Of a DNA stretch of 46,799 nucleotides, positions 13,248-36,005 are shown in pieces. The position numbers and the translations under genes are program-made. The notes under the pieces are model-generated. The model had not been told where the DNA came from. It did no database searches and saw only the letters and a list, made by a program, of their open reading frames with translations. The DNA is taken from the NCBI GenBank assembly GCA_947631565.1, contig CANRLV010000012.1, forward strand, positions 1 to 46,799. Direction: 5' to 3'. The DNA is from an uncultured Gemmiger sp. (GTDB taxonomy: Bacteria > Bacillota > Clostridia > Oscillospirales > Ruminococcaceae). Each line of letters starts with the position of its first letter. Positions within the stretch are counted from its first letter, which is position 1.

Positions 13248-13295
13248 ATTTGGTGCCGGCCCGCCGCCGCGGGCACGGTGTGTTCTGTTCCCTGC

Positions 13296-13369: not shown

Positions 13370-13373
13370 TGGA

Positions 13374-13418: not shown

Positions 13419-13476
13419 TACAGACCTGGGCTGCTGATACCTGCCGGATTTGATGCGCCGGCCGGCTGTCAGCGGC

Positions 13477-13731: not shown

Positions 13732-13792
13732 AACAGCCTCCCACCCGGTCGATCCCCTACCGCGGGACCAAAACACTTTATCGCTTTATGTC

Positions 13793-13821
13793 AGTATAGC
13801 ATTGCTTTGCAAATCGTGCAA
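13793..13821 (-). promoter_or_regulatory. Promoter of the small STAS-like gene
   Basis: On the minus strand TTGCAC (13821-13816) and TATACT (13798-13793) with a 17-base spacer, about 65 bases ahead of the ATG. Confidence 0.7.
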
Positions 13822-13878
13822 TCATTTGGACCCTTCTCTGGCCAAAAAGACGGCAAAGCCCGCGCGGCGTGTCCCCAA

Positions 13879-13921
13879 AAAAAGGTCCTGTGCCGCGGTC
13901 TGGCCGTCACAGGACCTTTTT
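13879..13921 (-). terminator. Terminator after the PP2C/kinase gene
   Basis: Stem AAAAAGGTCCTGTG (13879-13892) with its complement (13908-13921) around a 15-base loop. On the minus strand the hairpin ends in TTTTT, 45 bases past the stop of the large signalling gene. Confidence 0.85.
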
Positions 13922-13965
13922 CAGCGATGCGCTCCGCTGCGCCGCCCGGTTTTCCTCCGGCCGGG

Positions 13966-20835: not shown

Positions 20836-21939
20836 TTACTTTAGACCCAGCACGATATCACAGATGCGGTCGGCCTCAGCCAGCGGCAGGTCTGCGTAAA
20901 GCGGCAGGGTCAGCACCCGGGCGGCCGCGGTTTGCGCCACCGGCGTTTTGGCCGGGTCGAAACGTCCCTGAAAGCATTCAAACGCATTTGTGAGCGGGTA
21001 AAAATACTTGCGTGCGTTCACGCCCTGCGCCGCCAGCGCCGCAAACACTTCGTCCCGCGTATGGCCAAATACGGCGGGGTCGAACAGGACCGGGAAATAG
21101 CCGCAGTTCGGCCGCACCTGCGGCTGCTGCGCGTTGAGCTGCAGGCCCGGCACGCCGGACAGGCGTTCCCGATACCGTGCGGCAACGGCCTGCCGTTTGG
21201 CGATCTCCGCGTCGACATGGCGCAGGTTGCACAGACCCATGGCGGCGCAGAACTCGTTCATTTTGGCATTGGCGCCCACACCGACGACCGACTCCGGCCC
21301 TTTGATGCCAAAGTTTTTGAGCTGATACAGCCGCTCGCCCAACGCCGGGTCGGCAAAGGTGACGGCGCCGCCCTCGATGCTGTTGAACACCTTGGTGGCA
21401 TGAAAGCTGAAGCAGGAGGCATCGCCAAAGGTGCCCGCGCCGCGCCCCGCCAGCGTCTCGCCAAAGGTATGGGCAGCGTCATAAACAACCTTGAGATGAT
21501 GTTTTTTGGCAATTTTGTCGATGGCCTCGACGTCGCACAGGTTGCCGTATACATGCACCGGCAAAATCGCCGACGTGCGCTCGGTGATAAGCGGCTCGAT
21601 CTTGGAGGCGTCGACGGTGAAGGTATTTGGGTCAATGTCGCAGAAGACCGGCTCCAGCCCGTTGCGCACGATGGCATGCGTGGTCGAGGCGAAGGTGAAG
21701 GGCGTGGTGATGACCTCGCTGCCCCGCGGCAGGTCCAATGCCTGCAGCGTGAGCTCCAGCGCCATGTGCCCGTTGGTGACGAGCTGCACATGGGGCACGC
21801 CGAGATAGGCCTTGAGCGCCGCCTCAAAGGCTTTGTGTTTGGGACCCATGTTGGTCAGCCAGTGAGTATCCCAGATATCCTGTATTTCAGCGATGTATTC
21901 CTCCAGCGGCGGGAGGGAAGAACGAGTGACCAAAATCAT
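20836..21939 (-). CDS. DegT/DnrJ/EryC1-type sugar aminotransferase (VioA-like)
   Basis: A 367-residue PLP enzyme of the DegT family. Motifs: TNGHMALELTLQAL near 55-68, VVYDAAHTFG with Asp154 binding the PLP ring nitrogen, and SFHATKVFNSIEGG with Lys183 as the Schiff-base lysine. The sequence style, with WLTNMGP at the start and ILPVHVYGN, is that of dTDP-4-keto-6-deoxyhexose 4-aminotransferases such as VioA, which make 4-amino-4,6-dideoxy sugars. It is the last gene of the surface-polysaccharide operon. Its ATG overlaps the opine dehydrogenase stop by four bases and has a weak ribosome site, so translation is probably coupled. The substrate is inferred; no dTDP-glucose synthesis genes are in the window. 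Confidence 0.88.
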   Translation of the reverse strand: MILVTRSSLPPLEEYIAEIQDIWDTHWLTNMGPKHKAFEAALKAYLGVPHVQLVTNGHMALELTLQALDLPRGSEVITTPFTFASTTHAIVRNGLEPVFCDIDPNTFTVDASKIEPLITERTSAILPVHVYGNLCDVEAIDKIAKKHHLKVVYDAAHTFGETLAGRGAGTFGDASCFSFHATKVFNSIEGGAVTFADPALGERLYQLKNFGIKGPESVVGVGANAKMNEFCAAMGLCNLRHVDAEIAKRQAVAARYRERLSGVPGLQLNAQQPQVRPNCGYFPVLFDPAVFGHTRDEVFAALAAQGVNARKYFYPLTNAFECFQGRFDPAKTPVAQTAAARVLTLPLYADLPLAEADRICDIVLGLK

Positions 21940-22991
21940 ATTTCTGACGTTTTAACTCCCAATTTTATTTTATGGATATTCCTGCCGGTTTCCCGATAGT
22001 CTTTTTCCATCACGGCATTGGCAAGATCAATGACAAGAGAAGCATTGGGTGTCGGGACCCCATACAGTTTTCCCATTGCTTCCAGAGGCACAAGCCCGTT
22101 TGGTATGTCCTCCTCGATATACCGATGGTGGACGGAAAGCGGGGCATCGATGTCTTTATAATACTGATTGTTTTGCAAGCACTCGAACAGGTCTTTTCCG
22201 GATGTTTGATAGGTTCTTTTCAGCCACACAGTCAAAGGCTCCACGGGATACCCCATTGCATCCGCGACGGCCAATCTTTCCTGGTCGATCTTTTCCAAAA
22301 AGCGTGCGATGGTCCTTGAAATACCTTCATAATAATATTTGAAATCCACTTTTGTATTTTCGATCCAACCAACATTCATCAGCACCGGCATACAATGCAG
22401 TACCATACCGACATTTCCCAAAGAGGTTTCGATATAAGACCGTGCCGGCACAAAATCATGCCTTATGCTTTCCGGCAGTGCCTGGATCACCCGCTGCGCA
22501 TATTCCGATTTTCTTGTGGATAAAGGGATGCCTTGTTTGAAAGCATATATTGATACGGTATCCTCACTCAACTTTCTGCAGGTATAAACGATCGTCTGGG
22601 TCTCCGCCACCAGCGGTAAAGAAGTGCAGCCGCTTTCCCTGAGCGTATTCTCAAATTCCAGGATCCCGAATGTCCGGCCCGGATTCAAAACAATGATGTT
22701 GGTCTCATCCACATAAGGAGCGATCAGGCGGGCAATATCAGCATGTGCAGAGGATGGTGTGGTGACGAGGATCAGTTTTCGCAGACAGCTTTTGATATCC
22801 GTCGATACATAATGGATGTTTGCCGTTCCGCAGACGATGCCCTGGCAATAAATCTTTCCTGTACTGCGTATTTTTTGGATATGCTCTTCTGTGCGGTTCC
22901 ATAAGCAGCAGTTCTCCCCCTGAAGCGACAAATGTGCCGCCATGGAAAGACCCTGATGCCCCCCACCCAAAATCGTCACTTCATTTTTCAT
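21936..22991 (-). CDS. Octopine/opine dehydrogenase family protein
   Basis: A 351-residue NAD(P)-dependent enzyme. A Rossmann motif ILGGGHQGLSMAAHL (Gly9, Gly11, Gly14) starts it. The C-terminal octopine-dehydrogenase domain shows GMVLHCMPVLMNVGWIE with candidate catalytic His199 and Asn206, then YYEGIS, DQERLAVADAMGY and EEDIPNGLVP.....YGVPTP. Opine dehydrogenases reductively join the amino group of an amino acid to a 2-keto acid. It is translationally coupled on both sides (four-base ATGA overlaps) to the cobalamin-binding protein and the aminotransferase. Opines such as N-(carboxyethyl)lysine occur as amide-linked substituents in some bacterial polysaccharides, which suits the location. 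The amino acid and keto acid cannot be told from sequence. Base composition is more AT-rich than the flanks. Confidence 0.85.
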   Translation of the reverse strand: MKNEVTILGGGHQGLSMAAHLSLQGENCCLWNRTEEHIQKIRSTGKIYCQGIVCGTANIHYVSTDIKSCLRKLILVTTPSSAHADIARLIAPYVDETNIIVLNPGRTFGILEFENTLRESGCTSLPLVAETQTIVYTCRKLSEDTVSIYAFKQGIPLSTRKSEYAQRVIQALPESIRHDFVPARSYIETSLGNVGMVLHCMPVLMNVGWIENTKVDFKYYYEGISRTIARFLEKIDQERLAVADAMGYPVEPLTVWLKRTYQTSGKDLFECLQNNQYYKDIDAPLSVHHRYIEEDIPNGLVPLEAMGKLYGVPTPNASLVIDLANAVMEKDYRETGRNIHKIKLGVKTSEI

Positions 22992-24658
22992 ATGGCTTTG
23001 TATTCCAGTTGTTCCCGGTTGTATTTTTCTTTCAGGCGCAGAAGCCTGTTCTTTTCATTCAGGGGCTTGCCCGTACCCGGATGAACGGCCACGCATTTTC
23101 CGTCAATGATGGACGTTGCCATATCACCGCGGAATTTTTGGTTTTTCAAAATATGAACTGCATCAATATATCCTTTTCTTATGCAGTCACACAAAACGTC
23201 CGCGTTGGCCAGCGGGTCATCATACTCACCATATTCTTGCAGGATAAAGTCGATCAGCACCTGCGCCTCGCGCATCAATTCGGCTTTACGCTCCTGTATC
23301 ACCGAATCTTGCGCGATTGAAATATGGTCATTCAAAACATGCCGAATAACACCCTTGGCGATTTTACAGCTTTCGATCACCTCGCCGGAACGTGCCGCAT
23401 GATCAGCCTCACAATATCCCACCACATGCACGATATGCGGCTTGACGGCCATCTGCATGAAGGTGGATGCTGCCAACTGTCCTTTGGCGACATCCTCATC
23501 CGCATGAAACAGAGCAAGCCCCGCACGGGTCTCCCGGTAGATTTTGAAGTCGCTGCTTTTCAGCGATTCCACCATTTCGATCATGGCCAGTATCTTGGCT
23601 AAATCCATCGAGAACGAAAGACCGCTGGGATTGTTGAACATATACTGGGCAACATATTGCCTGACGCCCAACTTTTTTGCGTTATAGGCACTGATATAAG
23701 CCATTGCGACCGCTATCACATCAGGCGCATCGCGCAAACCCCAGTGATGCGGTTCGTTAAGTTCTACCGGGATCCCATTTTCGGCATGCCATCGAATCAA
23801 AGCCTGTGCTTCCCGCATGGAGACTTCCAGTTTTCTGCTGCCCCGTCCGTCCAATTCATTGTACCAGCACAGCGGAATAGCCGTCCATGCATTGTCAATC
23901 GTATCCAACAGCATTTTTGCGTACGGGAAAACATCCTCCGTGCCGCTGTAACAGCGCATGAGAGGATAGTTGCCACACTGTGAAGCCTCTTTAAGTTTTT
24001 GCAAATCCTCCGCGGAGCGAATCGGCACACCGCCCGCCCCGGTGAATTCCCTCTTCATGTTTTCCGGGTGGAAAAAGAACTGCTGCGCATTTTGATCCGG
24101 GCCCAAAGAAATAACATCCAGAACGCGTGCCTGCGCTATTTCAGCAACGCCTTGCACGGTCTCCTCCATGGTCGGGCGGCCATAATGGTGACGCAAAATC
24201 GGATAGGGATAGCTCGCATCGATTCGTTCCTCAAGCGTTTTTCCGTAGGAAGCAAGAGACTCGATATGCGGTCCGCCGCGCAAAAAACGGATCGTATCAT
24301 TGATATCGTCAAATCCATCCGATACATAATCAATAAAAGAATACCGGCGGGCAATGTCAGCGACCGGTTTCGTCCCCCCGAAGTCCCATATTACAGGAAA
24401 CGGGAGTTCCTTTTGCCGCTGTTCTATCTCGTCCAGCAGCGGCACCACATTTTCCGGGGTCAGCCGATAACTGATCCCGACCATATAAGGGCGAAGTTCA
24501 TATATTTTCGAGAACAGCTTGTCCACCGGGACGGCCGGGCCAAGAAACACCGTATCAAAGCCTTCCTGGCGGGCCAGGCTTAAGAAGTGGACAACACCGG
24601 CAACATGAACACAGTTGCCGATCGATGCTCCCAAAATCAGCTTTTTTTCGTTTTTCAT
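22988..24658 (-). CDS. Cobalamin-binding, glutamate-mutase-like protein (fused B12 and barrel domains)
   Basis: A 556-residue protein. Residues 1-130 have the layout of a B12-binding Rossmann domain: LILGASIGNCVHVAG, then FLGPAVPVDKLF, and IWDFGGTKP in the place of the GG loop. The cobalt-ligand motif DxHxxG reads C16-V-H18-V-A-G21: the His is kept but the Asp is Cys. Residues ~170-470 resemble, weakly, the barrel (E) subunit of glutamate mutase: CYSGTEDVFPYAKMLLDTI, then a helix-strand pattern ending in VELNEPHHW and YVAQYMFNNPSG. Glutamate mutase interconverts glutamate and 3-methylaspartate. Here both parts are one chain, B12 domain first. I infer an adenosylcobalamin carbon-skeleton mutase making an unusual amino acid for the neighbouring enzymes. 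GGAGGGGGG five bases ahead fixes the start; overlaps of four bases on both sides show coupling. Confidence 0.65.
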   Translation of the reverse strand: MKNEKKLILGASIGNCVHVAGVVHFLSLARQEGFDTVFLGPAVPVDKLFSKIYELRPYMVGISYRLTPENVVPLLDEIEQRQKELPFPVIWDFGGTKPVADIARRYSFIDYVSDGFDDINDTIRFLRGGPHIESLASYGKTLEERIDASYPYPILRHHYGRPTMEETVQGVAEIAQARVLDVISLGPDQNAQQFFFHPENMKREFTGAGGVPIRSAEDLQKLKEASQCGNYPLMRCYSGTEDVFPYAKMLLDTIDNAWTAIPLCWYNELDGRGSRKLEVSMREAQALIRWHAENGIPVELNEPHHWGLRDAPDVIAVAMAYISAYNAKKLGVRQYVAQYMFNNPSGLSFSMDLAKILAMIEMVESLKSSDFKIYRETRAGLALFHADEDVAKGQLAASTFMQMAVKPHIVHVVGYCEADHAARSGEVIESCKIAKGVIRHVLNDHISIAQDSVIQERKAELMREAQVLIDFILQEYGEYDDPLANADVLCDCIRKGYIDAVHILKNQKFRGDMATSIIDGKCVAVHPGTGKPLNEKNRLLRLKEKYNREQLEYKAI

Positions 24659-25890
24659 CTGTAGCCCCCCTCCATCTCCTTGAGCATGATGCTGTTCCCC
24701 TGCTCATCCAAAACATCCAGTTTTTCCAGCACGGCCTTTCGCCTTTTTTGGAGAGCCTCTGCCGTATCTTCGATTAGCAAAAAGCCGGCAACGCGGTCTG
24801 TGCTTGTGCAGGCATATTCCATCCTTGTCCCCAAACTTTTATAAACATAATATTCCTTTATCTCCTTCGCCGTCAAACATTTTTCAAAATTTTTCAAAGA
24901 TGAAAAGATGCCCGGTTTCACATATACATAATCCAATTCCATTGCCTTGGGGGATGGCTCCGGCACAATGACCTGCTGTGTATCGCCCAGGATACGGTTC
25001 ACAAAAGCTTCCATGATATCTACATTTGCCATATGTCTAATCAATCTGTACTTTGTTCCGCCCCCCATCCGGGCGCTGAATTCGACCACATAAAGCTGTT
25101 CTTCCCTCACAATGGCCTGGATCAAAACAGGACAGTTGCGCAAGCCAAATCCATCGGCGATTTTCTGCGCAATATACCGAATACGCTTCCCGGTTTGGCC
25201 GCTGACAGCGACCGGGTAGCTGCTCCTGAAAATCGTAAAATTATTTCGGCCATCTTCGATCTTATCGCTTTGGCTTACAGATAAAACTTTTGCTCCATCG
25301 GAATCCACCCAAACGTCGATCGATATTTCTTTGCCCCCGATATATTCCTCCATGACCGCCGTGCCGCTTCGGCTCAGCTTCAAAGCGTTTTGCGCCGCCT
25401 GCCGCAATTCAAACTCGTTTTCTACTTTTATTACACCCTTGGAGCTGTTGCAGTCACAAGGCTTCACCACAAGCGGGAAGTTCAAATTGGATATGCCCCG
25501 GACAGCCTCTTCCGGTGAGACAAAGGTCATGCTTTTTGCGGTGGGGATACCGATTTCCTCAAACCGCTTTTTCATATACTTTTTGTTGGTCACCTGAATA
25601 GCCTGCCGGTAAGGAAGATAGATCGGCAGCCCCATCTTTTCGGAAACCGCCGCAGCCGTCAGCAGCGCCTGATCTGTACAGGCGGAAATGATCCTATCGA
25701 CTTTTTGTTCCACCGCGATTTTATATACGGCCGCCTCGTCCAGAGTGCTTTCACGAAAATGCTTATCGGCAATCTTTTTTGCCATCGGCGCTTCAAGATA
25801 ATCTACCAGAAATACCGCGTGTCCACGCTGTTTAAGGAGCCTGCAAAACTGTATGGAATCATATCCCCCGGCCAACACCAATATTCTCAT
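24655..25890 (-). CDS. ATP-grasp carboxylate-amine ligase
   Basis: A 411-residue ATP-grasp protein. A Rossmann-like preATP-grasp domain (MRILVLAGGYDSIQFC) leads, followed by NKKYMKKRFEEIGIP, the ATP-binding strand PLVVKPCDCNSSKGV, VMEEYIGGKEISIDVWV, and the metal/phosphate loop VVEFSARMGGGTKYRLI. Members join a carboxylate to an amine through an acyl phosphate. The ATG at 25890 follows GGGAGGCGG; the frame extends 14 codons further without similarity. The last bases overlap the cobalamin protein start. In this cassette I infer it activates an amino acid or opine carboxylate and forms an amide, perhaps with an amino sugar or with a sugar uronic acid. It is strikingly AT-rich for this genome, a sign of recent acquisition. 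Confidence 0.88.
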   Translation of the reverse strand: MRILVLAGGYDSIQFCRLLKQRGHAVFLVDYLEAPMAKKIADKHFRESTLDEAAVYKIAVEQKVDRIISACTDQALLTAAAVSEKMGLPIYLPYRQAIQVTNKKYMKKRFEEIGIPTAKSMTFVSPEEAVRGISNLNFPLVVKPCDCNSSKGVIKVENEFELRQAAQNALKLSRSGTAVMEEYIGGKEISIDVWVDSDGAKVLSVSQSDKIEDGRNNFTIFRSSYPVAVSGQTGKRIRYIAQKIADGFGLRNCPVLIQAIVREEQLYVVEFSARMGGGTKYRLIRHMANVDIMEAFVNRILGDTQQVIVPEPSPKAMELDYVYVKPGIFSSLKNFEKCLTAKEIKEYYVYKSLGTRMEYACTSTDRVAGFLLIEDTAEALQKRRKAVLEKLDVLDEQGNSIMLKEMEGGYR

Positions 25891-25959: not shown

Positions 25960-26967
25960 TCAGGTCTCTATCTCTTTTTTGCGCTTTATCACTCTGTCGA
26001 CAAATTTTTGCCAAAGTATCTTGCCGTCGCCGTAGTAGAGCCGTTTGCAGATGGTAACGATGCGGCGGCGCAGCCTTTCCAGCTTGTTCCCTTGCTGCTT
26101 TACGACAAGGCGGCAGTATTCCTCATCGCAGACAACGTAGCGGGGATGCTTCAAGGGGAATTCGCATTGGTAGACCGGGGTCATATACATCTGCTGCGTT
26201 TTTTTGTCCAGCTTGCGGAAATCGACGCCATGCGTGGCATCGTCCGTGGCGCCCATCTGCAAAACATGATTCCTGGCGGGCACGATCGTCAGACAATGTC
26301 CCACGACCTTGGTTACCGGGCAAATATCCTCCTGTCCGGGCGGATGGTTGTCAATATAGCCCTTCTCCCGTAACGTTTTTACCTTCTCTACAAATTTCTT
26401 CCCGTATTTTCCTTTCAGGATCTCCAGGATGTACGGGTCATACATCCATTCTGTTTCCTTCATAAATTCAATACTTCGTTTCCAATAGGCTGAACCTGAG
26501 CTGCGGCCCCCGCGCACGAAAAAGTAATCCGCGCCGGTCCTGTCATAGATCCCCAATTGATTCTGTCCCTCGATCGCCTCGATGCGCAGATCATCCTTAT
26601 ACCGTTCCAGCAGCTCTGCACAGAACCGAAAATATGAGGGATCCGCCAGCGTATCATCCTCAAAAAATACGATGCGGTCTACCTTGGAGAAAACGAATTC
26701 CTTCCACAGGCTGCCCATGGTATACATGCCATGGTTTTTATCCATATACAGCTTATATACAGTGCAGTCCCAATCGATGGCATCCTCGCAGATCTTCCGG
26801 CTTTGGTAGATCTTGTTCCATTCCTCTTCGTTGCGGCCCCCGTCGGAGACCAGAAATACGATGCTGGGCCTGGCGATGGCGATGGGCGCGAAGGTCTGCC
26901 GCTGTAATTCCGGCCTGGTCCATATCATCATGCATACCGGCACATCTACCAGATAGGGCTTTTTCAT
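25960..26967 (-). CDS. Putative GT-A glycosyltransferase (GnT-I-like)
   Basis: A 335-residue cytoplasmic protein. The N-terminus, VPVCMMIWTRPELQRQTF, and the central RIVFFEDDTLADPSYFRFC resemble GlcNAc-transferase-I-like and hemolysin-type GT-A glycosyltransferases; EDD would be the metal-binding acidic motif. GNGG-like conserved patches are not obvious, so the donor is unknown. Several His, Cys and Trp residues lie in the second half (HPPGQEDICP, ATDDATHGVDF). AAGGAG eight bases ahead marks the start, which overlaps the flippase stop by four bases. It is the last glycosyltransferase in the operon, upstream of the ATP-grasp cassette. Confidence 0.7.
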   Translation of the reverse strand: MKKPYLVDVPVCMMIWTRPELQRQTFAPIAIARPSIVFLVSDGGRNEEEWNKIYQSRKICEDAIDWDCTVYKLYMDKNHGMYTMGSLWKEFVFSKVDRIVFFEDDTLADPSYFRFCAELLERYKDDLRIEAIEGQNQLGIYDRTGADYFFVRGGRSSGSAYWKRSIEFMKETEWMYDPYILEILKGKYGKKFVEKVKTLREKGYIDNHPPGQEDICPVTKVVGHCLTIVPARNHVLQMGATDDATHGVDFRKLDKKTQQMYMTPVYQCEFPLKHPRYVVCDEEYCRLVVKQQGNKLERLRRRIVTICKRLYYGDGKILWQKFVDRVIKRKKEIET

Positions 26968-28505
26968 TCCGCTTCTCCTTTTTTAAAGAGCGCCTGTACC
27001 TCAGCGCGGAAAAACTGTTTTTCTTCTGCCGTCAAAACAAACAACACAGAGGTCACCGCAAACGCCGCCACGATGCCCAGCGCTTTCACGGCGAGTCCCA
27101 GCCAGTTTTGTGCCGTATAGAAGGACATCATCCACATCAGCAGCATGGTCAGCAACACATACGGGATTGCCATACTGTACACACTGCGCACAAATGCAAG
27201 CACATCGACGCCCAAATATTTGCGGAACAACACCAGATTGACTACGCTGCGCAGCAAATAGCCCACACAGATGGCCCCCGCGGCGCCGACGGCGCCGAAA
27301 CGGATCGTCAGCAGCCCGCCGCAGAGCAGGATCACAAGGGTCCCCCCCACCCGATTAAGAGCAATGGGCCGCAGATATCCCTGCGCCGTCATTGCGGTCA
27401 GGAATATGTGGAACGGATTGAAGGCCAGCTCCCCAACCAGCAAAAAGCAGGCGCAGGGATAGGCCCGGCGATAGGTTTCGCCCATCCAGACCGCGAAAAA
27501 CTCCTCACCGATGCAGAAAAAGCCAATCAGGATCACAGCAGAAATGCCCAACAGGATACGCCCCACACGGATGCCCAGTTCCGTCAGCCGTTCCATTGCG
27601 TTCTCACCGTTGAGGATGCGGGTCACCTTTGGCAAAAAGAGCCCACTCACTGCATTGGTAAGCAAATACGCATATCCGTTCAGTGTGGTCGCCGCGCCGT
27701 AAATCGCCGTTTCGACAGCGCCTGCGACGGCCGCTACGATGGAGGGCATGAGCCCGGTGCTGAAGGTGGCTGCAATGCTGCTGACCGTAGCCCAAACAGA
27801 AAAGCTGAAGATCTCCAGCAGCAGCTTTTTGTCAAAGCCCTTCCAGACGATGTGCAGACGGATCTTCCTGTGTACGACCCACCATTTGAAGACAATGGCC
27901 GCCCCTCCGCTGACGATGTTCGCCAGCACGAGCGCATACAGCCCGCCCCCATGCGTAAGCGCTATGATCACCAGCAGGATGGTAAATATGCGCGTCAGCA
28001 GCTCGCTGGCTTTTAAGGCAACGAATTCCTCAAATGCATTGAGGATACCGTTGAGTGCGGTAAAGGGAAAGGCGAACAGGTTGTAACCGACCACCATCAC
28101 ATAAACGATGCGGAAGGAGGCAAACTCCTCCGCCGTGAGGCTGGCATAAATCGTTCTCAGAAAGATAAAAATGATCGCTGACGCACAAAGGGCAAGCAGG
28201 TCGATACCGATATACAGCTTATAGACCAACCCGACGAACCGGGACAGACCATTCTCATCCTGCTTGGCACGGTACTGCGCCGCGAAGCGCGAAAGCGCTT
28301 CGCCAATGCCAAAGTCCACCATCAGGATGCTGATCAGCGATACCGCCAGGGTATAAAGCCCGTAATTGCTGTCGCCGATCTGCCGGATCATCCACGGCGT
28401 ATAGACGATGCCGGAGCCAATGTTGACAGCCAGCGCCAGATAGCTGACCATGCTGCCCTTGAGGATGCGGAGATTGCTTTTCTTTTCTGTTTCGTTGCTG
28501 CCCAT
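26964..28505 (-). CDS. Polysaccharide flippase, Wzx type (MOP superfamily)
   Basis: A 513-residue membrane protein with about 14 hydrophobic segments. The N-terminus, RILKGSMVSYLALAVNIGSG, then YTPWMIRQIGDSNYGLYTLA, is typical of lipid-linked repeat-unit flippases of the polysaccharide transport family. It would move undecaprenyl-diphosphate-linked repeat units across the membrane for polymerisation by the Wzy-like protein at 33611. A promoter-like TATAAT lies about 90 bases upstream, so this gene and those after it may also be transcribed separately. The product ends in acidic KKGEAE, overlapping the next start. Confidence 0.9.
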   Translation of the reverse strand: MGSNETEKKSNLRILKGSMVSYLALAVNIGSGIVYTPWMIRQIGDSNYGLYTLAVSLISILMVDFGIGEALSRFAAQYRAKQDENGLSRFVGLVYKLYIGIDLLALCASAIIFIFLRTIYASLTAEEFASFRIVYVMVVGYNLFAFPFTALNGILNAFEEFVALKASELLTRIFTILLVIIALTHGGGLYALVLANIVSGGAAIVFKWWVVHRKIRLHIVWKGFDKKLLLEIFSFSVWATVSSIAATFSTGLMPSIVAAVAGAVETAIYGAATTLNGYAYLLTNAVSGLFLPKVTRILNGENAMERLTELGIRVGRILLGISAVILIGFFCIGEEFFAVWMGETYRRAYPCACFLLVGELAFNPFHIFLTAMTAQGYLRPIALNRVGGTLVILLCGGLLTIRFGAVGAAGAICVGYLLRSVVNLVLFRKYLGVDVLAFVRSVYSMAIPYVLLTMLLMWMMSFYTAQNWLGLAVKALGIVAAFAVTSVLFVLTAEEKQFFRAEVQALFKKGEAE

Positions 28506-28827: not shown

Positions 28828-29556
28828 TTACTGTAAAAATTCGTTGCCCCTTTTTACATTCTCCCAGAATACCGCTTTGGTCTGTTCGATACCGCAGTTG
28901 AAAAGCATATCCAGGCTGGACAGACCGGGCAGGAATTCAGTGGTGTTCCGCTGCGGATATACCGGGTGCACAAAATCCTGAAACACGATCTTTACACCAT
29001 TTTCTGCAAATTTTTCCCGGTCCAGATACCGAACGGACCCGCCGCGCCCGGAAAGGTAGGTATCCGCTTGCATGGCCTGACAGATACTCAACACAAGATC
29101 TGACCGCTTTTGGGTGGTATCGTAGTCAAGGTCCTTTTGAAAATACAGCGGCGTATGTATCTCCAACAGGCCACGCAGCCACTTGATGCTGGCGACCGCC
29201 CATTCACATGCGGTGTGATATTCCTGGTCAAAAAACGGGGTCAGTTGTTCCATGACCTCCTGATAGCCGGGCGCCTTCCGGTAATATTCCCGCAGCTTAT
29301 TGAGCCCGTTTTGTTTCCAGATATCATTGTTTTTTGTTTCGATCTCATTGTATTTGCGGTCCAGATACCCCTTGCGGTCTATGGTCATGGTCAGATAGCC
29401 GATCTGACCGTTGTTGGCCGCCAGTCGGTTGCGCACCATATACGATGATATTTCCAGCTGTACCTCGTCCAGCAGCACGAAGGCGTCCGCCTTTGCCATC
29501 TTGTCCAAATATCCCAGCCACGGAAAAAAATGCGGTTGGTGGATCGCGCACCTCAT
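28828..29556 (-). CDS. WbqC-family protein (possible amino-acyl transfer to a surface sugar)
   Basis: A 242-residue protein of the WbqC-like family, with IHQPHFFPWLGYLDKMAKAD at the N-terminus, FVLLDEVQLE, and SGRGGSVRYLD further on. The biochemical role of the family is unproven. Members occur in O-antigen clusters, and one (WbnG) has been suggested to be a glycine transferase. The ATG at 29556 follows GAGGTG by seven bases; a GTG three codons earlier is less likely. In this locus, with an ATP-grasp ligase and amino-acid enzymes, an acyl or aminoacyl transfer to an amino sugar is a reasonable guess. Base composition is lower in GC than the core genes. Confidence 0.85.
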   Translation of the reverse strand: MRCAIHQPHFFPWLGYLDKMAKADAFVLLDEVQLEISSYMVRNRLAANNGQIGYLTMTIDRKGYLDRKYNEIETKNNDIWKQNGLNKLREYYRKAPGYQEVMEQLTPFFDQEYHTACEWAVASIKWLRGLLEIHTPLYFQKDLDYDTTQKRSDLVLSICQAMQADTYLSGRGGSVRYLDREKFAENGVKIVFQDFVHPVYPQRNTTEFLPGLSSLDMLFNCGIEQTKAVFWENVKRGNEFLQ

Positions 29557-29594
29557 ATTCTGCACCTCATCATTTTGATATTTGAAGGATCCGC

Positions 29595-30341
29595 TTATTG
29601 TAAGGATTCCCGCGGCAGCACGGAGGGGAGGTCAGTAAAATTTCGGTTCAGGATATCCCATCGGTCAACCTGTGCCGGTCCGATAAAGCCCCGAGCCCAC
29701 TGTTCCAGATCCGTGTCCGTTGGCCCGTAGCCGATCGCATGGGTCAGGATGTGCAGGCGCGGATACTGTCGGCTTTTGATGATATCCAGCACCGGTTCGC
29801 GCCAGTGGTGGCGGGAGTCTGAAAGATACTTGAAATCATGGAAAAACAGCTTGCTGTAGCTGTTGACCATGCCCGGTATTTCGAGGTCAGCGGCCAGTAT
29901 ATCTTTGCTGGGCCGATGCATGGAGACCTTTGTGACCGGCTTGCCGGTCACAAACTGCAGAAGGTCCGCCTCCTGCAAAATTTTTTCGCGGATGGCGTCG
30001 ACATTGCCCACGATGTCCGGGTAGTTCACCTCGTCAAAATGCAGGCCGATCTCGTGCCCGCAGGCCATGATATCGCGCAGCCCCCGTGTGGAAGCCGCAG
30101 AAAAGACGTTGTAAAAATCGCTGGTGAGCAGCACAAACCAGGTGCTCTGCACGCCGCATTCCTGCTCCATCCTTGCAAAGATGCGCGCCTTTTCGATGCT
30201 GTTGTCGATATCATGCCGCAGAATGACAGGGCGGGCTTTGCTTTGCCAGTCATCATAGCCGGCGGGCTCGTAGCCGTTCGCCCGCAAAAGAGCCAACAGA
30301 TCCCGGTACGCCTGCCAGGTAAATCCCGGACGTCCTTCCAT
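29595..30341 (-). CDS. NodB-fold polysaccharide deacetylase-like protein
   Basis: A 248-residue cytoplasmic protein with NodB-homology motifs: VILRHDIDNS (His43, Asp44, Asp46) and GHEIGLHFDE (His96, His101, Asp103), then VSMHRPS. NodB-fold enzymes use a metal held by Asp and two His to remove N- or O-acetyl groups. No signal peptide is present, so it acts in the cytoplasm on a nucleotide sugar or lipid-linked intermediate. The ATG at 30341 follows GAGGTG and comes one base after the dehydrogenase stop. The substrate is unknown. Confidence 0.82.
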   Translation of the reverse strand: MEGRPGFTWQAYRDLLALLRANGYEPAGYDDWQSKARPVILRHDIDNSIEKARIFARMEQECGVQSTWFVLLTSDFYNVFSAASTRGLRDIMACGHEIGLHFDEVNYPDIVGNVDAIREKILQEADLLQFVTGKPVTKVSMHRPSKDILAADLEIPGMVNSYSKLFFHDFKYLSDSRHHWREPVLDIIKSRQYPRLHILTHAIGYGPTDTDLEQWARGFIGPAQVDRWDILNRNFTDLPSVLPRESLQ

Positions 30342-30342
30342 A

Positions 30343-31665
30343 TCACAGCACCTCGATGTTATCACGCGGATGGATGTTTTTCATTACGTTTTTGGTATCG
30401 AAGATCGCCTTGGCATTGGCCTGCACCATCGCATAATCGACGTTGGTATGCGCGCAGGTCACCATGACCAGGTCGCTGGCGGCAACCGCCTCCGGCGTCA
30501 GGGCCGGGATGCTTTTGCCGGTCTCACCGTACATATTTTTGAATTCCGGCACCCACGGATCATAGTAGCTGACCTCGGCGCCGACCTTTTTGAGCTCCTT
30601 GATGACACGGATGGCCGGGCTCTCGCGGTAGTCGTCGATGTCCTGTTTGTAGGCCACGCCCAGCACCAGCACCTTCGCCCCGTTGATGGCCTTTTTGTGC
30701 CGGTTCAGGATGTGCATGGCACGCTCGACGCAGTATTCCGGCTGGCCGTCGTTGATGACCATGCTGTTCTCGATGAGGGTGGTGTGGAAGCCGTACTCGC
30801 GGGCCTTCCAAGTCAGGTAATAGGGGTCGAGCGGGATGCAGTGCCCGCCGAGACCCGGCCCGGGATAGAAGGGCTGGAAGCCGTAGGGCTTTGTCTTGGC
30901 GGCGTCGATGACCTCCCAGATCGAGATGCCCATCTCGTGGCACAGGCGGGCCAGCTCGTTGACGAGGCCGATGTTGATGTTGCGGTAGGTATTCTCCAGG
31001 ATCTTTTCCATCTCGGCCACCGCCGGGCTGGAAACGGTGTGGATGTCGCCCTCCAGCACGGCGCGGTACATGGACGAGATGACCTCGGTCGCGTCGTCGC
31101 CGATGGCGCCGACCACCTTGGGCGTGTTCTTGGTCTTGTAGAACAGGTTGCCGGGGTCGACGCGCTCGGGGCTGAAGCCAAGGTAAAAATCCCTGCCGCA
31201 GACAAGGCCGCTGCCCTGCTCCAAAATGGGCTTGAGCAGCTCCTCGGTGGTGCCGGGGTAGGTGGTGGACTCCAGCACCACCATCGTGCCGGGCTTGAGA
31301 TATTTGGCCACCTCGATGGCGGAATCCCGCACATAGCTGATGTCCGGCTCCTGGTGCTCGTCCAGCGGCGTGGGCACGCAGATGGCGATGAAGTCGGTGC
31401 TGGCCACCTCGCGAAAATCGGTGGTGGCGCGCAGCCTGCCGGCCTTGACCAGATCCGCCAGGTCGCTGTCGACCACGTCGCCGATGTAGTTGTGCCCGGC
31501 GTTGACCATCTCGACCTTGGCTGCCTGCACGTCAAAGCCGACGGTGGCAAAGCCGGCCTTGGCCTTCTCGACCGCCAGCGGCAGACCGACATAGCCGAGC
31601 CCCACCACGCCAGTCCGGAGCGTTTTGTTCTGTATCTTGGTCAAAAGTGCCTGTTTGATCTCCAT
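30343..31665 (-). CDS. wbpA: UDP-N-acetylglucosamine 6-dehydrogenase (WbpA-like)
   Basis: A 440-residue nucleotide-sugar dehydrogenase of the UDP-glucose/UDP-ManNAc family. The NAD site is TGVVGLGYVGLPLAVEKAKA, followed by PTPLDEHQEPD, TYPGTTEELL, GFSPERVDPGN and the catalytic-cysteine motif GPGLGGHCIPLDPYY. The last is characteristic of WbpA/WecC-type enzymes, which oxidise C6 of UDP-N-acetylhexosamine to a uronic acid using 2 NAD+. The ATG at 31665 overlaps the preceding TGA by one base and has GGAGAGGAG ahead. The uronic acid would give the polymer a carboxyl group, to which an amino acid could be amide-linked. GlcNAc versus ManNAc or Glc as substrate is inferred. Confidence 0.9.
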   Translation of the reverse strand: MEIKQALLTKIQNKTLRTGVVGLGYVGLPLAVEKAKAGFATVGFDVQAAKVEMVNAGHNYIGDVVDSDLADLVKAGRLRATTDFREVASTDFIAICVPTPLDEHQEPDISYVRDSAIEVAKYLKPGTMVVLESTTYPGTTEELLKPILEQGSGLVCGRDFYLGFSPERVDPGNLFYKTKNTPKVVGAIGDDATEVISSMYRAVLEGDIHTVSSPAVAEMEKILENTYRNINIGLVNELARLCHEMGISIWEVIDAAKTKPYGFQPFYPGPGLGGHCIPLDPYYLTWKAREYGFHTTLIENSMVINDGQPEYCVERAMHILNRHKKAINGAKVLVLGVAYKQDIDDYRESPAIRVIKELKKVGAEVSYYDPWVPEFKNMYGETGKSIPALTPEAVAASDLVMVTCAHTNVDYAMVQANAKAIFDTKNVMKNIHPRDNIEVL

Positions 31666-32810
31666 CAATGTGCTCTCCTCTCCAAAGCTTGCCTGATAAA
31701 CGCTAAAAATTGCTTTTTATACTCCTCTATCGTGCTGCGGTACACACGGTCGGCAAAGCGTATCGACTGTGTTTCTTCCAGCACGGCTGTCAGCGCCTTC
31801 TCGTCCCGCACGGGGTAAAAATAGACGTTCTTTTGGAGTTCCGGCGGCAGCTCCATCGACGGCAGATTTTCTTCCCGTGTTCCCATAAGGATAGCGCCGC
31901 CGCCGGAATAAAGGCTTTCAAAGACCGTCCGCCCCGCACCGGTCACATTGTCGCCCCGGATGACGAAATCCACCACGCGGTACAAAGCCTCGTTGTCCGG
32001 CACACCGCCCAGGAAGCGGATGCGCGGGTCATCCCCGGCTTTTTCCCGCGCGATCTGTTCATATCCGTTGTGGTTGGTGTCCTCGCCGGCCACAAGCAGG
32101 ACAGCGTTCTCCAGCCGGGCCTTGCGGAAGGCCCCGATCACGAAATCCACGCCCTTTTCCGGGAAAATATTGCCGATGATGGCATACACCGTCTCCTGCC
32201 CGGTGAGCCCGAAGCGCTTGCGGGCGGCCGTGACGTCGACATCCCCGACCGGCGTCTGGTCATACGGGTTGATGAGCGTCAGGACCGGCACGTTGAGCGG
32301 CGGGCAGCGTTTGCGGTTTTCTTCACCAATTGCAATGACCCCGGCGGCCTTGTTGAGCTGCGCCTGCAGCCGGGCATCGCTCTTCTTCCAGTCGGCGCGT
32401 ATCGGTTCGCGGATATGCAGGAACATCGGCCACTCTTTTTGCAGCATGGGGTACAGAGTGATGCTGTTCAGGTGGATAAAATCGTAGTTCCCGCTTTTGT
32501 AGAGGTGCCGATAGACCGGCTGCGCCAGAAAATACAGGACATCCTTTACCGCAGATTTCACGGCTTGCTGCAGCTGGAAGGATACATCCCCCTGAACAAA
32601 CAGCTTGGCCGGCTGCGGCAGGTACCATATATGCCGCACGCGCGGCCCGTAAAACTGTTGGATCTGTTCCGGAGTGATGCGCCCCTCGTTTTTGATCTTG
32701 ACCGGAAAGATGATGTCCACGTCCGCGTCAAGATTGCGGATGAGATTGCCCAAGCTGCGGCTGGCGCCGTAGATGGGGTCCTGACAGTGGATGATGAACA
32801 ATGCTTTCAT
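31665..32810 (-). CDS. Family 4 glycosyltransferase
   Basis: A 381-residue GT-B glycosyltransferase. The N-terminal half has IIHCQDPIYGASRSLGNLI and FIHLNSITLYPML; the C-terminal half has AIIGNIFPEKGVDFVIGAF, LLVAGED and the GT4 donor-binding stretch GAGRTVFESLYSGGGAILMG. Here the usual E-x7-E pair is partly kept (RTVFESLYSGG). It would add one sugar to the lipid-linked repeat unit. AAGGAG six bases ahead of the ATG at 32810 fixes the start; the seven codons before it belong to the leader. Confidence 0.87.
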   Translation of the reverse strand: MKALFIIHCQDPIYGASRSLGNLIRNLDADVDIIFPVKIKNEGRITPEQIQQFYGPRVRHIWYLPQPAKLFVQGDVSFQLQQAVKSAVKDVLYFLAQPVYRHLYKSGNYDFIHLNSITLYPMLQKEWPMFLHIREPIRADWKKSDARLQAQLNKAAGVIAIGEENRKRCPPLNVPVLTLINPYDQTPVGDVDVTAARKRFGLTGQETVYAIIGNIFPEKGVDFVIGAFRKARLENAVLLVAGEDTNHNGYEQIAREKAGDDPRIRFLGGVPDNEALYRVVDFVIRGDNVTGAGRTVFESLYSGGGAILMGTREENLPSMELPPELQKNVYFYPVRDEKALTAVLEETQSIRFADRVYRSTIEEYKKQFLAFIRQALERRAH

Positions 32811-32856: not shown

Positions 32857-33621
32857 TCATTTTGCCGTCAGCCGCATGATGTTTTCCTTGCCAAAAACGC
32901 GGATGATCCCCATTTTGGCATATTTCACCGCAAAAAAGCTCCAAACCTCAAAAGCATTGGCGCCGTTTTTCCGCAGCATATACCGGAACTCCTGCCGCTT
33001 GGCACGGTCAAATTCCGTGAAGGTCACCCCGCCAAGGGTAAAAAAGGCCAGCGCCTTGTCCACATACTTGATTTTCGCACCGGCCTGCTGGTACCGCAGC
33101 AATAAATCGAAGTCCATCACGAAGCGGCATTTTTCATCATACAGACCGTACTGCTCATACGCGCGCCGGGCAATAAAGGTGCTGGGATGATCAATGTGGT
33201 TCAGCCCGTTGTAGCGGATGTGCAGCGACGGTTTTTCGATCGTCATCGTATCCGTATCCTCTTTCCAGATCTGCAGATCTCCGCGGTACACGTCGACCTC
33301 CGGCTCATAGGCCGCCGCCAACGCCGCCAGCGCGCCGGGCACCAGACCGTCATCGGAGTTGATGATCCCGATCAGATCGCCGGTCGCCATACGGATCCCC
33401 TTGTTGAACGCACTGCTGATGCCGTCGTCCGGCTCCGATACCCATTTTGCCAGATAGGGCTCATAGCGGCGGATCACATCCAGCGTACCGTCTGTGGAGC
33501 CGCCGTCGACAATGATGTACTCCAGCTTGTCATATTTCTGCGCCAAAACGCTTTTGATGGTACGCTCCACCGTTTTCACGCTGTTCAGGGTGACGGTGAT
33601 GATGGTGATTTCAGGCTGCAT
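32857..33621 (-). CDS. Family 2 glycosyltransferase
   Basis: A 254-residue GT-A enzyme similar to WfgS/WcaA-like transferases. Motifs: ITIITVTLNSVKTVERTIKS, YIIVDGGSTDGTLDVI, INSDDGLVPGAL and HPSTFIARRAYEQYGLYDE, then a C-terminal helical tail. The nucleotide-binding aspartates are intact. The ATG at 33621 is placed by similarity and by the GGGGAG ahead; 20 extra in-frame codons upstream lie inside the polymerase gene, which it overlaps by 11 bases. It adds a sugar in the cytoplasm. Confidence 0.9.
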   Translation of the reverse strand: MQPEITIITVTLNSVKTVERTIKSVLAQKYDKLEYIIVDGGSTDGTLDVIRRYEPYLAKWVSEPDDGISSAFNKGIRMATGDLIGIINSDDGLVPGALAALAAAYEPEVDVYRGDLQIWKEDTDTMTIEKPSLHIRYNGLNHIDHPSTFIARRAYEQYGLYDEKCRFVMDFDLLLRYQQAGAKIKYVDKALAFFTLGGVTFTEFDRAKRQEFRYMLRKNGANAFEVWSFFAVKYAKMGIIRVFGKENIMRLTAK

Positions 33622-34918
33622 ATCGTTTTTTCTCCCCTGCCTGTTCCGAGGCCATCTGCAAAAGATAGACCCCCAGCACAAAAATCATCAGCGCCTCGCC
33701 GCCGTGGAATTCCACCAAGCTGAGAACGAACCAAACGGCAAAGTACCCGTCAAACGGTGCGGCAAAAAAGCGCGGGCGCCGCTGCCACTGCCGGCGCAAA
33801 AAGGCAAGGCCAAGACCGATGTACCACGCCCCGCCGATGAAGCCCTCATCCAACAGCCATTGCAGGAACACATTGTGGACGACATCCTCGTAGCCGGTAA
33901 AGCCGTAGCTCTGACGCATCACGCGCATGGCGTTGCCGACACCATAGCCCCCGGGGTTATCCGCAAAGACCTGCGGCACCATTTTCCAGATCGCCGCCCG
34001 GCCGCTGAGCAGCGCAGCGCCCGCGCTGCCGTATGTGTCGGCCAGATACTGCACGGATGAGGACGTGCCGGTCTGCCGGATGCCCAAGACCTGCGCCGGA
34101 GCCGGGAGCCAAAACAGATTGCGGCCCAAAAACGCCTGCGCGCCGCCGCTGCCGAACAGGACCGCCAGCATACACACCGCATACAGGGCATACCATTTTG
34201 CGTTGTGTTTGGTAAGACGGTACAGCGGGTCATAGATGAGGGTCCACAGAATCAGCAGGGCCGCCCCGATCACTCCGACGCGGCTGCTGCCCAAAAAGCT
34301 GAACAGCAGCACATAGGTGACATAGACCGCCTTTTTGCGGCCGGTCACAAAAAAGCCGCCCAAAACCAGCCATGTACAGTCCAGATTGCGCCCGCCGCGC
34401 GTCAGCGACGGCAGGATCGCGCCCATATAGCCGCCCATGGTCCCCATGAAGTACCCGGAAAGCAGCCGCCAGACCGTCCGCCAATTCCACAGCAGAAACA
34501 CAAAATGCAGCACGGCGAAGCAAATCGTACCCGCCTCCAGCAGGCGGCGCCACTGCTCCCTGGTCAGCGCCTGCCCGACGTTGAGGATCACCAGCAGCAG
34601 ATACGCACCAAACAGCCAGTGCAGGATGCTGTTGGAGAGCCCGTACCGGGGCAGGCGCACAAACGCGTACAAAATCACATAGGCCGCCAGCCCCGTGATC
34701 CACCACGGCGGCAGCACCAACCGGCGGCGCTGCCGAATGTTGATCGCCAGCAGCGGCACGAACACCAGCGAGAAAAAATAGCACAGACTGGCCGGTATCT
34801 CGCCGTTGTCCGTCTGGATCGAAAAGAACTGCAGGTCCGGCAGATAGAGCAGCATCCACTGCAGGAACAGCAGCCCCGCCGTCAGTTCGGTTCGCTTGTC
34901 AGGCCCTTCCGTTGTCAT
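33611..34918 (-). CDS. O-antigen ligase/polymerase-like membrane protein (Wzy type)
   Basis: A 435-residue protein with about 10-11 hydrophobic helices and a large extracytoplasmic loop late in the chain, the layout of Wzy polymerases and WaaL-like ligases. The loop ends with AIWKMVPQVFADNPGGYGVG and VVHNVFLQWLLDEGFIGG; the HN-x6-E style pattern is characteristic of the O-antigen ligase domain. It would polymerise repeat units outside the membrane. The ATG at 34918 (MTTEGPD) follows GGGAG and overlaps the end of the next upstream gene by 20 bases. An 81-codon in-frame extension lies within that gene and is a shadow. Confidence 0.85.
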   Translation of the reverse strand: MTTEGPDKRTELTAGLLFLQWMLLYLPDLQFFSIQTDNGEIPASLCYFFSLVFVPLLAINIRQRRRLVLPPWWITGLAAYVILYAFVRLPRYGLSNSILHWLFGAYLLLVILNVGQALTREQWRRLLEAGTICFAVLHFVFLLWNWRTVWRLLSGYFMGTMGGYMGAILPSLTRGGRNLDCTWLVLGGFFVTGRKKAVYVTYVLLFSFLGSSRVGVIGAALLILWTLIYDPLYRLTKHNAKWYALYAVCMLAVLFGSGGAQAFLGRNLFWLPAPAQVLGIRQTGTSSSVQYLADTYGSAGAALLSGRAAIWKMVPQVFADNPGGYGVGNAMRVMRQSYGFTGYEDVVHNVFLQWLLDEGFIGGAWYIGLGLAFLRRQWQRRPRFFAAPFDGYFAVWFVLSLVEFHGGEALMIFVLGVYLLQMASEQAGEKKRYAA

Positions 34919-36005
34919 TCGCGGTCTCCCGTTCCCAATAAAATTCTTCCAGGCGGCGTGCGCACTGGGCGATGTCCGGCACCGCCGCGGCCGGCCCGCG
35001 CTCCGCCGCGCATACCGCATCGGCCCAGGCGGCCGCGCCGCGTTCCAGCGCGCAGAACACACTGTTCGCGCTGCAGCCCGCCTCGCGCGTGATGTGGTCG
35101 GACAGGATGCAGGGCAGGCCGTTGGCCTGGGCTTCCCACGCGGCGAGGGGCATCCCCTCAAAATTGCTGGGCATACAGAAAACGTCCATGGCCGAATACA
35201 GCTTGTTCACATCGGCACGCGCGCCGGTAAAAACAACGGCCTTTTCCAGCCCCAATTTCCGCACCTGCTGCCGTATCCTTTGCTCCAGCTCTCCCTCGCC
35301 CACCAACAGCAGCCGCGCATCCGGGCGCTGCTTTTGCAGCTCGGCAAACATCTCAAGCAAAAACCGGTGATTTTTGGCGTAGGTGAGCCGCCCCACATGG
35401 CCGACCACAAAGGCGTCCGGCGCGATGCCCAGCTCGGCGCGCAGGCACTGCCGCGCCGCCGGGTCAAAGGCAAATTTGGCGGGCTCGATGGCGTTGGGCA
35501 GCACCGTCACCCTGCCGGCGTCGAAGGCCTTGTCGCCGTACATCCAGCGCCCGGCCCGCTCGCCGCAGGCGAACCAATCGGTGGCGAACCACTTGTTGAT
35601 CGGGCGCAGCAGATACTTGAGCAGCGCCTTGACGCCCTCGCCCCAGTGGGCGGTGGAGTGGTCATGGCAGATGCGCACCGGTACGCCGGCACGCCAGGCC
35701 GCGAACAGCACAAACACCGATATCGTGTTCATCTGCGCGTGCACGATGCGGTAACCGCGCGCCTTAAAGGCGCGGTACAGCGCCCGGTGGTAGCTGAACA
35801 TATGGCTGCATGGCGGCAGGGGATAGAGCCCGGCGCCCATGCGTTCCATCTCGGCGCGCTGGGGCAGGGTGCTGTCGGCGACAAAATAGAAGTCGAACTG
35901 GACGCGGCTGCGGTCGATGTGGCGGTAGTAGTCCAGGATCACAGCCTCAACGCCGCCGCTGTCCATACGGTTGATCACCTGTGCGATGCGGATCGGTTTA
36001 TCCAT
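34899..36005 (-). CDS. Family 4 glycosyltransferase (EpsF-like)
   Basis: A 368-residue GT-B protein with the usual GT4 pattern: IAQVINRMDSGGVEAVILDY at the start, HDHSTAHWGEG, ATDWFACGERAGRWMYG, VVGHVGRLTYAKNH, LLLVGEGELE and the donor site MPSNFEGMPLAAWEAQANGL with Glu as the catalytic region. It resembles exopolysaccharide transferases such as EpsF. The ATG at 36005 is chosen because AAGGAG stands seven bases ahead; an ATG two codons earlier is too close to it. It overlaps the initiating transferase gene by 8 bases. Confidence 0.9.
   Translation of the reverse strand: MDKPIRIAQVINRMDSGGVEAVILDYYRHIDRSRVQFDFYFVADSTLPQRAEMERMGAGLYPLPPCSHMFSYHRALYRAFKARGYRIVHAQMNTISVFVLFAAWRAGVPVRICHDHSTAHWGEGVKALLKYLLRPINKWFATDWFACGERAGRWMYGDKAFDAGRVTVLPNAIEPAKFAFDPAARQCLRAELGIAPDAFVVGHVGRLTYAKNHRFLLEMFAELQKQRPDARLLLVGEGELEQRIRQQVRKLGLEKAVVFTGARADVNKLYSAMDVFCMPSNFEGMPLAAWEAQANGLPCILSDHITREAGCSANSVFCALERGAAAWADAVCAAERGPAAAVPDIAQCARRLEEFYWERETANDNGRA

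Follow-up and report, generated by a model that had tools for sequence, protein, structure and literature searches.

The AdoCbl (adenosylcobalamin)-dependent glutamate mutase is served by a reactivation partner, GlmL, and the pyrrolysine pathway PylBCD combines a skeleton mutase, an ATP-grasp ligase, and an NAD dehydrogenase, with PylB being a radical SAM (S-adenosylmethionine) enzyme and not a B12 enzyme. The osmolytes N-acetylglutaminylglutamine amide (NAGGN) and N-epsilon-acetyl-beta-lysine are made by mutase- or AsnB/ATP-grasp-type enzymes. Opine-substituted O-antigens occur in Proteus and Providencia, and we know of no B12-dependent step in their synthesis. Here, we analyzed a four-gene cassette encoding an ATP-grasp ligase, a B12 protein, an opine dehydrogenase, and a DegT-family aminotransferase on contig CANRLV010000012.1 of an uncultured Gemmiger sp., the whole 46,799-nt stretch of which is referred to as the window. 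An initial interpretation made from the letters of this DNA, here called the sequence-only reading, had proposed that the four genes decorate a surface polysaccharide, and had cited the opine-bearing polymers of Proteus and Providencia as known examples. The core of the cassette proved to be of interest for another reason, since the B12 protein and the opine dehydrogenase form a widespread module, which is controlled by c-di-AMP (cyclic di-adenosine monophosphate) in many Bacillota. In the order of transcription, the four genes are:

24655..25890, minus strand: ATP-grasp ligase, putative amino-acid/opine to amino-sugar ligase (411 aa; PF13535 ATP-grasp_4, 6.3e-17)
22988..24658, minus strand: B12 protein of predicted AdoCbl-dependent mutase fold, a B12 domain fused to a TIM barrel (556 aa; PF02310 B12-binding, 1.3e-8)
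21936..22991, minus strand: opine dehydrogenase, CENDH-like (351 aa; PF02317 Octopine_DH, 7.6e-47)
20836..21939, minus strand: DegT-family sugar aminotransferase, putative 4-amino-4,6-dideoxyhexose maker (367 aa; PF01041 DegT, 1e-104)

The extent of the cassette (20836..25890), its strand, and the 4-nt overlaps described in the sequence-only reading were confirmed at all three junctions, and Pfam returned the same four families. The coupling is limited to these four genes, as 69 nt lie between the cassette and the preceding gene. Their G+C contents were 0.48 (ATP-grasp), 0.505 (B12 protein), 0.47 (opine dehydrogenase), and 0.61 (DegT), compared with 0.656 in the window outside the locus, which suggests that at least the first three genes arrived horizontally, while the DegT gene, given its G+C content, may be a separate addition to the cassette made in this host. 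A phage or plasmid origin was ruled out, as no match was found among plasmids and phages, and none of the 140 viral contig stretches that matched a pattern encodes a relative. The Rfam scan of window positions 10000-46799 yielded one tRNA and no further elements.

The association of the two core genes was assessed in a genome-collection scan, in which the best 80 of 200 mutase relatives were examined (loci are numbered with L, sampled genomes with G). An opine dehydrogenase gene adjoined the mutase gene on the same strand in 77 of the 80 loci with a median gap of -1 nt, and the two genes overlapped or abutted in 46 of these 77, the B12 gene being first in 36 and the dehydrogenase gene in 41. 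The association therefore exceeds chance. Among the three loci with no adjacent dehydrogenase gene, L048 and L068 start at a contig edge, and L056 is a real exception on the available sequence. The dehydrogenase gene was also adjacent in 27 of 29 further loci (L153-L181), with L154 and L156 having none within 1.5 kb. According to the record names, the pair is carried by Clostridia, Halanaerobiales, Acidobacteriota, Bacteroidales, Desantisbacteria, Thorarchaeota, and Lokiarchaeota, among others. Matches were found in 5 of 197 sampled genomes of the window's family and 22 of 391 of its class, both counts including its own genome and the latter including five with a second mutase family (see below), and in 86 of 398 of its phylum, a count that includes its own genome and a few matches to the distant families only (e.g., G588, G659, G708). 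Within the 19.9 kb around the pair in the four relatives from the family of the window, none of the remaining window proteins had a match. Neighboring genes were named by eye unless Pfam was run; the Halanaerobiales loci L060, L061, L071, L076, and L079 have a gene for an LNT-like protein (apolipoprotein N-acyltransferase, by Pfam in L076) either immediately behind the pair or one gene further on. No literature linking opine dehydrogenases with B12-dependent mutases or with the ydaO riboswitch was found in a search that left subscription papers, including those on the ydaO/c-di-AMP riboswitch, largely outside, and the two enzymes appear to be a widespread, undescribed pair.

The B12 protein contained both a TIM barrel and a B12-binding Rossmann domain, and in fold prediction its best match was glutamate mutase, with a complete mutase barrel. 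The MutE family PF06368 matched with 2.9e-4 and 19.9 bits, below the cut-off of 26.6 bits, which some relatives in the phylum narrowly passed (e.g., in G760, G635, G673). In the mutase alignment (77 of the 80 loci; L068, L069, and L074 were cut short and omitted), His18 and Gly21 of the DxHxxG motif were invariant, Cys16 took the place of the Asp in at least 90% of 78 sequences, and Glu417, the adenosyl-site Glu, was conserved. The substrate claw of glutamate mutase is formed by Arg66, Arg100, and Arg149 according to a published description (PMC10947579). In their place stand H158, Q192, and Y237 of the window protein, which were invariant in the 78 sequences, whereas the arginines were present in 23 of 23 MutE. 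This mapping came from profile alignments with a probability of 77.5-87% and E values of about 2e-6 to 4e-6, and was the same with three MutE; the MutE frames were chosen by motif, with all 23 loci yielding one and none being dropped. Glutamate mutase proper was ruled out by the claw residues together with the PF06368 score.

More distant relatives extended the picture. A second mutase family (L106-L110) was 34-38% identical to the window protein over the barrel, carried the canonical DAHTLG where the sequence covers the motif, and, once the loci were extended (L114-L118), was adjoined by an opine dehydrogenase gene in four of the five, the sequence of L115 being too short. L114 also has a gene of the mannitol dehydrogenase family upstream. 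The third family (L182:3306-7007, minus strand; L183:1739-5383) comprises proteins of about 1,200 aa with a C-terminal GlmL/MutL-type domain, which in L182 matched PF13941 with 7.5e-82 and the GlmL model with 9.2e-83 and 278 of the 475 bits required, L183 being assigned by sequence; a divergent opine dehydrogenase gene is located next to it in both loci. Since GlmL reactivates AdoCbl glutamate mutase, the fusion of a distant relative to a GlmL-type domain supports radical chemistry. The mutase fold and the coupling of the pair are very likely, and the B12 protein is best regarded as a putative cobalamin-dependent radical mutase of a new subfamily, with AdoCbl radical chemistry predicted from its sequence.

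The window opine dehydrogenase matched N-(1-D-carboxylethyl)-L-norvaline dehydrogenase (CENDH, 1bg6) with 2.7e-62 and 213 bits. Its residues H199 and D295 align to CENDH H202 and D297, which we take to be the catalytic His and Asp, and both were invariant in the 31 sequences aligned (31 rows from 74 usable ones plus others).

A regulatory element recurred before the pair. The c-di-AMP riboswitch (Rfam RF00379) was found upstream of the pair in 10 of 22 loci scanned. A model of this element (R1), built from five of the 12 loci it then matched, gave 12 matches in 91 sources (1.48 Mb), all 12 before the operon, at 64-330 nt upstream of the dehydrogenase gene or, in L041 and L088, of a Ddl-like gene ahead of it. 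With 49 further sources (0.25 Mb), 18 matches were obtained in 17 sources, again all before the dehydrogenase gene. The riboswitch was present in 15 of the 29 loci L153-L181, which include a flank of only 1.5 kb, and in L157 two copies stand in tandem before the opine dehydrogenase gene (4226-4352 and 4491-4616, minus strand). For the third Rfam scan, some loci were picked after R1 had matched them, and some organisms were repeated across the model scans, certainly in the case of L097/L120 and L098/L121 and probably in that of L161/L058 and L162/L061; the repeats mean that the matches count loci and not independent events. Flavin mononucleotide riboswitches in L037 and L051 were set aside because they are downstream of the pair, and SAM and PyrR elements were located elsewhere. 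In the Desantisbacteria loci L072 and L083, CBS-type and Na+/H+ exchanger genes follow the pair, accompanied in L072 by pieces of an MscS gene. In a published study, a tandem Na+/c-di-AMP switch controls a gene for the precursor of N-epsilon-acetyl-beta-lysine, with transcription predicted to terminate when c-di-AMP is high (PMC9337991). Taken together, the c-di-AMP riboswitches, this published osmolyte switch, and the Desantisbacteria neighbors point to osmotic control of an osmolyte pathway, and an osmolyte role of the pair's product is likely. The sequence-only reading had named as contrary evidence the four genes occurring together far from any polysaccharide locus with a known product; this was borne out in part, in that the pair stands behind a c-di-AMP riboswitch in many Bacillota, but with no known product.

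The surface-polysaccharide setting claimed for the window was upheld, with the Wzx, WbqC, nucleotide-sugar dehydrogenase, and Wzy_C genes all being located upstream of the cassette on the same strand:

25960..26967, minus strand: putative glycosyltransferase upstream of the cassette (glycosyltransferase-like by eye; no Pfam family, NCBIfam match at chance level)
26964..28505, minus strand: Wzx flippase (PF01943, 1.6e-21)
28828..29565, minus strand: WbqC-like protein (PF08889, 2.2e-60)
29595-30365, minus strand: 256-aa protein, deacetylase-like by eye (no Pfam or NCBIfam family over threshold)
30343..31668, minus strand: nucleotide-sugar dehydrogenase (TIGR03026, 9e-127, above cut-off)
33611..35161, minus strand: Wzy/O-antigen ligase family membrane protein, Wzy_C (PF04932, 1.1e-9)

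In a quick mutase tree (85 rows, including three of the five second-family rows; L121 omitted), for which support was given by the Shimodaira-Hasegawa-like approximate likelihood ratio test (SH-aLRT) only, the window mutase fell into a clade of nine (SH-aLRT 100) that contains all cassette mutases and is nested within the B12-first stand-alone pairs. All four cassette genes were present in the window, L010, L013 (Selenomonas ruminantium), L015, and L016, with the DegT gene of L013 lying upstream of the ATP-grasp gene with one gene in between. In L011, the contig ends within the dehydrogenase gene, and L014 carries DegT and RmlB-like genes with the pair and two other ATP-grasp genes upstream. 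The window, L010, L011, L014, L016, and L050 contain further polysaccharide genes (Wzx, Wzy_C, Bac_transf, ABC2, UDP-galactopyranose mutase, and RmlB-like), while those of L013 were assigned by eye and by a SIS-domain match; the L014 gene at 12705-14051, which looked Wzy-like by eye, is DctM. As a context control, 20 proteins of polysaccharide type were compared with all 80 loci at 1e-8, the shortest loci having 3,370 bases. Ten of these proteins came from the window locus, DegT and ATP-grasp among them, and the other ten from the cassette loci and L123. Seven of the eight fetched clade loci had matches (L015 through its own DegT and ATP-grasp only) compared with two of the 72 others, namely L027 with one and L089 with two, where NDP-sugar epimerase-like and UDP-galactopyranose mutase-like genes follow straight after the pair (L089:4393-6551). 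The polysaccharide setting is therefore almost wholly that of one clade. Outside it, L123 has another kind of ATP-grasp gene between the dehydrogenase and mutase genes, beside a Wzx gene, and apparently represents an independent capture; its branch in the mutase tree is very long and its placement unsure. Accordingly, the expected co-occurrence with polysaccharide genes held for the cassette, which recurs in other polysaccharide loci, but not for the pair, which is not specific to them, and the sequence-only reading as a whole was partly supported.

The two outer cassette genes were compared with characterized families. The window ATP-grasp ligase also matched PF01071 (2.7e-15), was 42-56% identical to the ATP-grasps of L010, L011, L013, L015, and L016, and reached 2.7e-19 and 69 bits with the PylC model TIGR03909, whose cut-off is 248 bits. 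At E <= 1e-50, it had matches in three of the 398 phylum genomes, which were its own, G609 with the cassette, and G660. The gene of the G660 homolog (27%) is accompanied by an RmlB-like gene and by one for a different DegT (29%), and no B12 protein or opine dehydrogenase match was found in the 17 kb examined there. The window DegT was 58-64% identical to those of L010, L013, L014, L015, and L016, with DesI as its best NCBIfam model at 308 bits, below the cut-off of 650 bits, and no DesI/VioA-type equivalog cut-off was reached. The window's own genome encodes RmlB (L124, over cut-off) and a cobalamin adenosyltransferase. Based on the DesI-nearest DegT, the RmlB of the same genome, and the gene set of G660, we propose that the ATP-grasp enzyme may acylate a DegT-made 4-amino sugar, with the pair supplying an unusual acyl group.

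Ligases also recurred beside stand-alone pairs. A Ddl-like ATP-grasp gene directly precedes the pair in five loci (L037, L041, L051, L069, and L088; by Pfam in L037 and L088 and by clustering in the rest), and a Mur-ligase-like gene directly follows it at L084:7929-9323. AsnB-like proteins were encoded near the pair in six loci (L063, L064, L081, L082, L083, and L087; Pfam on L064 and L087), not directly adjacent in L063 and L083; the glutaminase Cys2 was absent in five of the six and the SGGxDS motif present in all, and the NAGGN amidotransferase model ranked third, far under its cut-off. Those lacking Cys2 at L064:11642-12979, L081:2021-3406, and L087:6808-8256 are perhaps amide or lactam formers and not asparagine synthases. 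The AsnB-like gene of L061 was not counted, being an ordinary one located 2.3 kb after the mutase gene. The recurrence of amide-forming ligases suggests that the product of the pair is often carried on to an amide.

In addition to the observed gene order, coupling, predicted fold, conserved residues, riboswitch association, and phylogeny, a mechanism can be outlined. The radical mutase and the CENDH-like opine dehydrogenase would act in one short pathway to yield an unusual opine-type amino acid, which in free-living anaerobes is probably an osmolyte expressed at low c-di-AMP. In the window, this module would have been captured into the surface-polysaccharide locus, where DegT and an RmlB-type 4,6-dehydratase encoded elsewhere in the genome could produce a nucleotide-bound 4-amino sugar. 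The ATP-grasp enzyme would then activate the carboxylate of the module product and join it to the amino group of the sugar, and assembly and export of the polymer with this decoration would fall to the glycosyltransferases, Wzx, and Wzy. The window cassette is best read as producing a polymer with an opine or unusual amino acid in amide linkage, the amide being formed by the ATP-grasp enzyme, and we consider amide-linked decoration somewhat more probable than its absence. For the whole explanation, an osmolyte-type B12-opine module of anaerobes captured for surface decoration, the chances appear about even. More tentatively still, and with doubt prevailing, the pair may be a B12-dependent osmolyte pathway not seen before, present in bacteria and apparently Asgard archaea, in which the mutase rearranges an opine-destined amino acid or the opine itself, controlled by c-di-AMP in many Bacillota and captured in the window as a covalent polysaccharide decoration.

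Several observations weigh against this explanation. No c-di-AMP riboswitch was found in the window (whole, with the model), in the cassette loci, or in any B12-first locus, nor by the model scan in the named Halanaerobiales, Acidobacteriota, Bacteroidales, and Asgard loci; among the dehydrogenase-first loci of the 80 with more than 1.5 kb upstream, 10 of 36 have one and 26 have none. The G+C content of the DegT gene is unlike that of the three other cassette genes, and since no NCBIfam ATP-grasp or DegT model was matched over its curated cut-off, the acceptor and the sugar are guesses. L014 and L050 lack the cassette ATP-grasp and carry others (24-27% identity), the DegT of L050 is also different (29%), the clade member L012 has the pair with no polysaccharide gene, and L015 shows the cassette only. 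The branching of the cassette opine dehydrogenases differs from that of the mutases: in a quick tree of 83 rows (four second-family rows; L011, cut off, omitted; SH-aLRT only), those of seven clade members grouped with second-mutase-family ones (95) and that of L015 with a stand-alone one (97), a pattern that suggests replacement of the partner by another opine dehydrogenase. Finally, ABC-transporter and hydrolase genes are found near some relatives (L054, L119, L182), as would suit catabolism.

Such a catabolic role, in which hydrolases split imported opine- or peptide-like compounds, the dehydrogenase releases a keto acid together with an amino acid that the mutase channels into fermentation, with the cassette using the reverse direction, would fit the C26 peptidase gene and the ABC-type gene immediately preceding the pair in L054, the C26 peptidase and ABC-type genes flanking it in L182 (ABC genes partly by eye), the family-5 solute-binding protein and amidohydrolase genes before it in L119, and the fact that glutamate mutase is a fermentation enzyme. 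We nevertheless judge it unlikely, because such genes were seen in these few loci only, among the part of the neighborhoods read by eye, because the sole recurring regulator is the c-di-AMP riboswitch, and because ligases recur by the pair. It is quite improbable that the pair makes a precursor of modified peptidoglycan or a wall peptide, which would explain the c-di-AMP link instead of an osmolyte; c-di-AMP riboswitches also control wall hydrolases, and the Ddl-like genes before the pair and the Mur-ligase-like gene in L084 would be accounted for, but the pair occurs in two records named as Asgard archaea (by record name, binning unverified), which are taken to lack peptidoglycan, and has Na+/H+ exchanger and MscS neighbors in L072.

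For the window itself, the view of the sequence-only reading that the four genes were assembled for the polysaccharide alone, with mutase and dehydrogenase existing to make the substituent, draws on the 4-nt overlaps and on the recurrence of all four genes in five loci of distant hosts. The evidence is already against it for the family as a whole, given the markers in only 2 of 72 loci outside the clade and the nesting of the clade inside stand-alone pairs, and we give it little credence, although it could hold for the window's own copy. Conversely, osmolyte genes might have come to lie in the polysaccharide locus by chance, leaving the polymer undecorated by them, as could be thought from the pair with no polysaccharide genes in L012 and the G660 set with no pair; the gene overlaps, the ATP-grasp and DegT common to distant hosts, and the apparently independent capture in L123 make this a slim prospect. 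That the B12 protein is a corrinoid methyl carrier or B12 sensor and no radical mutase is highly improbable, for although its N-terminal domain scored weakly with methyltransferase corrinoid proteins, its mutase barrel is complete and its fold best matched by glutamate mutase, Glu417 is conserved, and a relative is fused to the reactivase GlmL.

If the osmolyte module and its capture are real, about a fifth of the sampled phylum genomes (86 of 398) carry an unrecognized AdoCbl-dependent enzyme, many under c-di-AMP control, which would explain part of the B12 demand of these genomes and add a new class of compatible solutes. It would also provide an example of a cytosolic solute pathway being redeployed to mark the bacterial surface chemically.

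Compared with the known systems, the window mutase shares with glutamate mutase (GlmE/MutE with GlmS/MutS and the reactivase GlmL) the TIM barrel and B12-binding Rossmann domain, the invariant lower-ligand His, an invariant Glu to which Glu330 of glutamate mutase aligns, and, in a distant relative, a fused GlmL-type domain. It differs in being one fused chain, in having His/Gln/Tyr for the claw arginines and mostly Cys for the Asp of DxHxxG, and in its partner, an opine dehydrogenase. That partner has the PF02317 domain and the retained His and Asp in common with CENDH and the octopine dehydrogenases, but its gene is coupled to a B12 mutase gene. PylBCD offers the same set of mutase, ATP-grasp, and dehydrogenase, with a sub-threshold PylC match, and is set apart by its non-B12 PylB and by the PylC cut-off that the window ATP-grasp did not reach. 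The surface polymer bearing an opine or amino acid that is proposed here would resemble the opine-substituted O-antigens of Proteus and Providencia. The NAGGN and N-epsilon-acetyl-beta-lysine pathways also concern amino-acid osmolytes, with an osmolyte gene under Na+ and c-di-AMP riboswitches having been published (PMC9337991), and employ other enzymes than the mutase and opine dehydrogenase pair.

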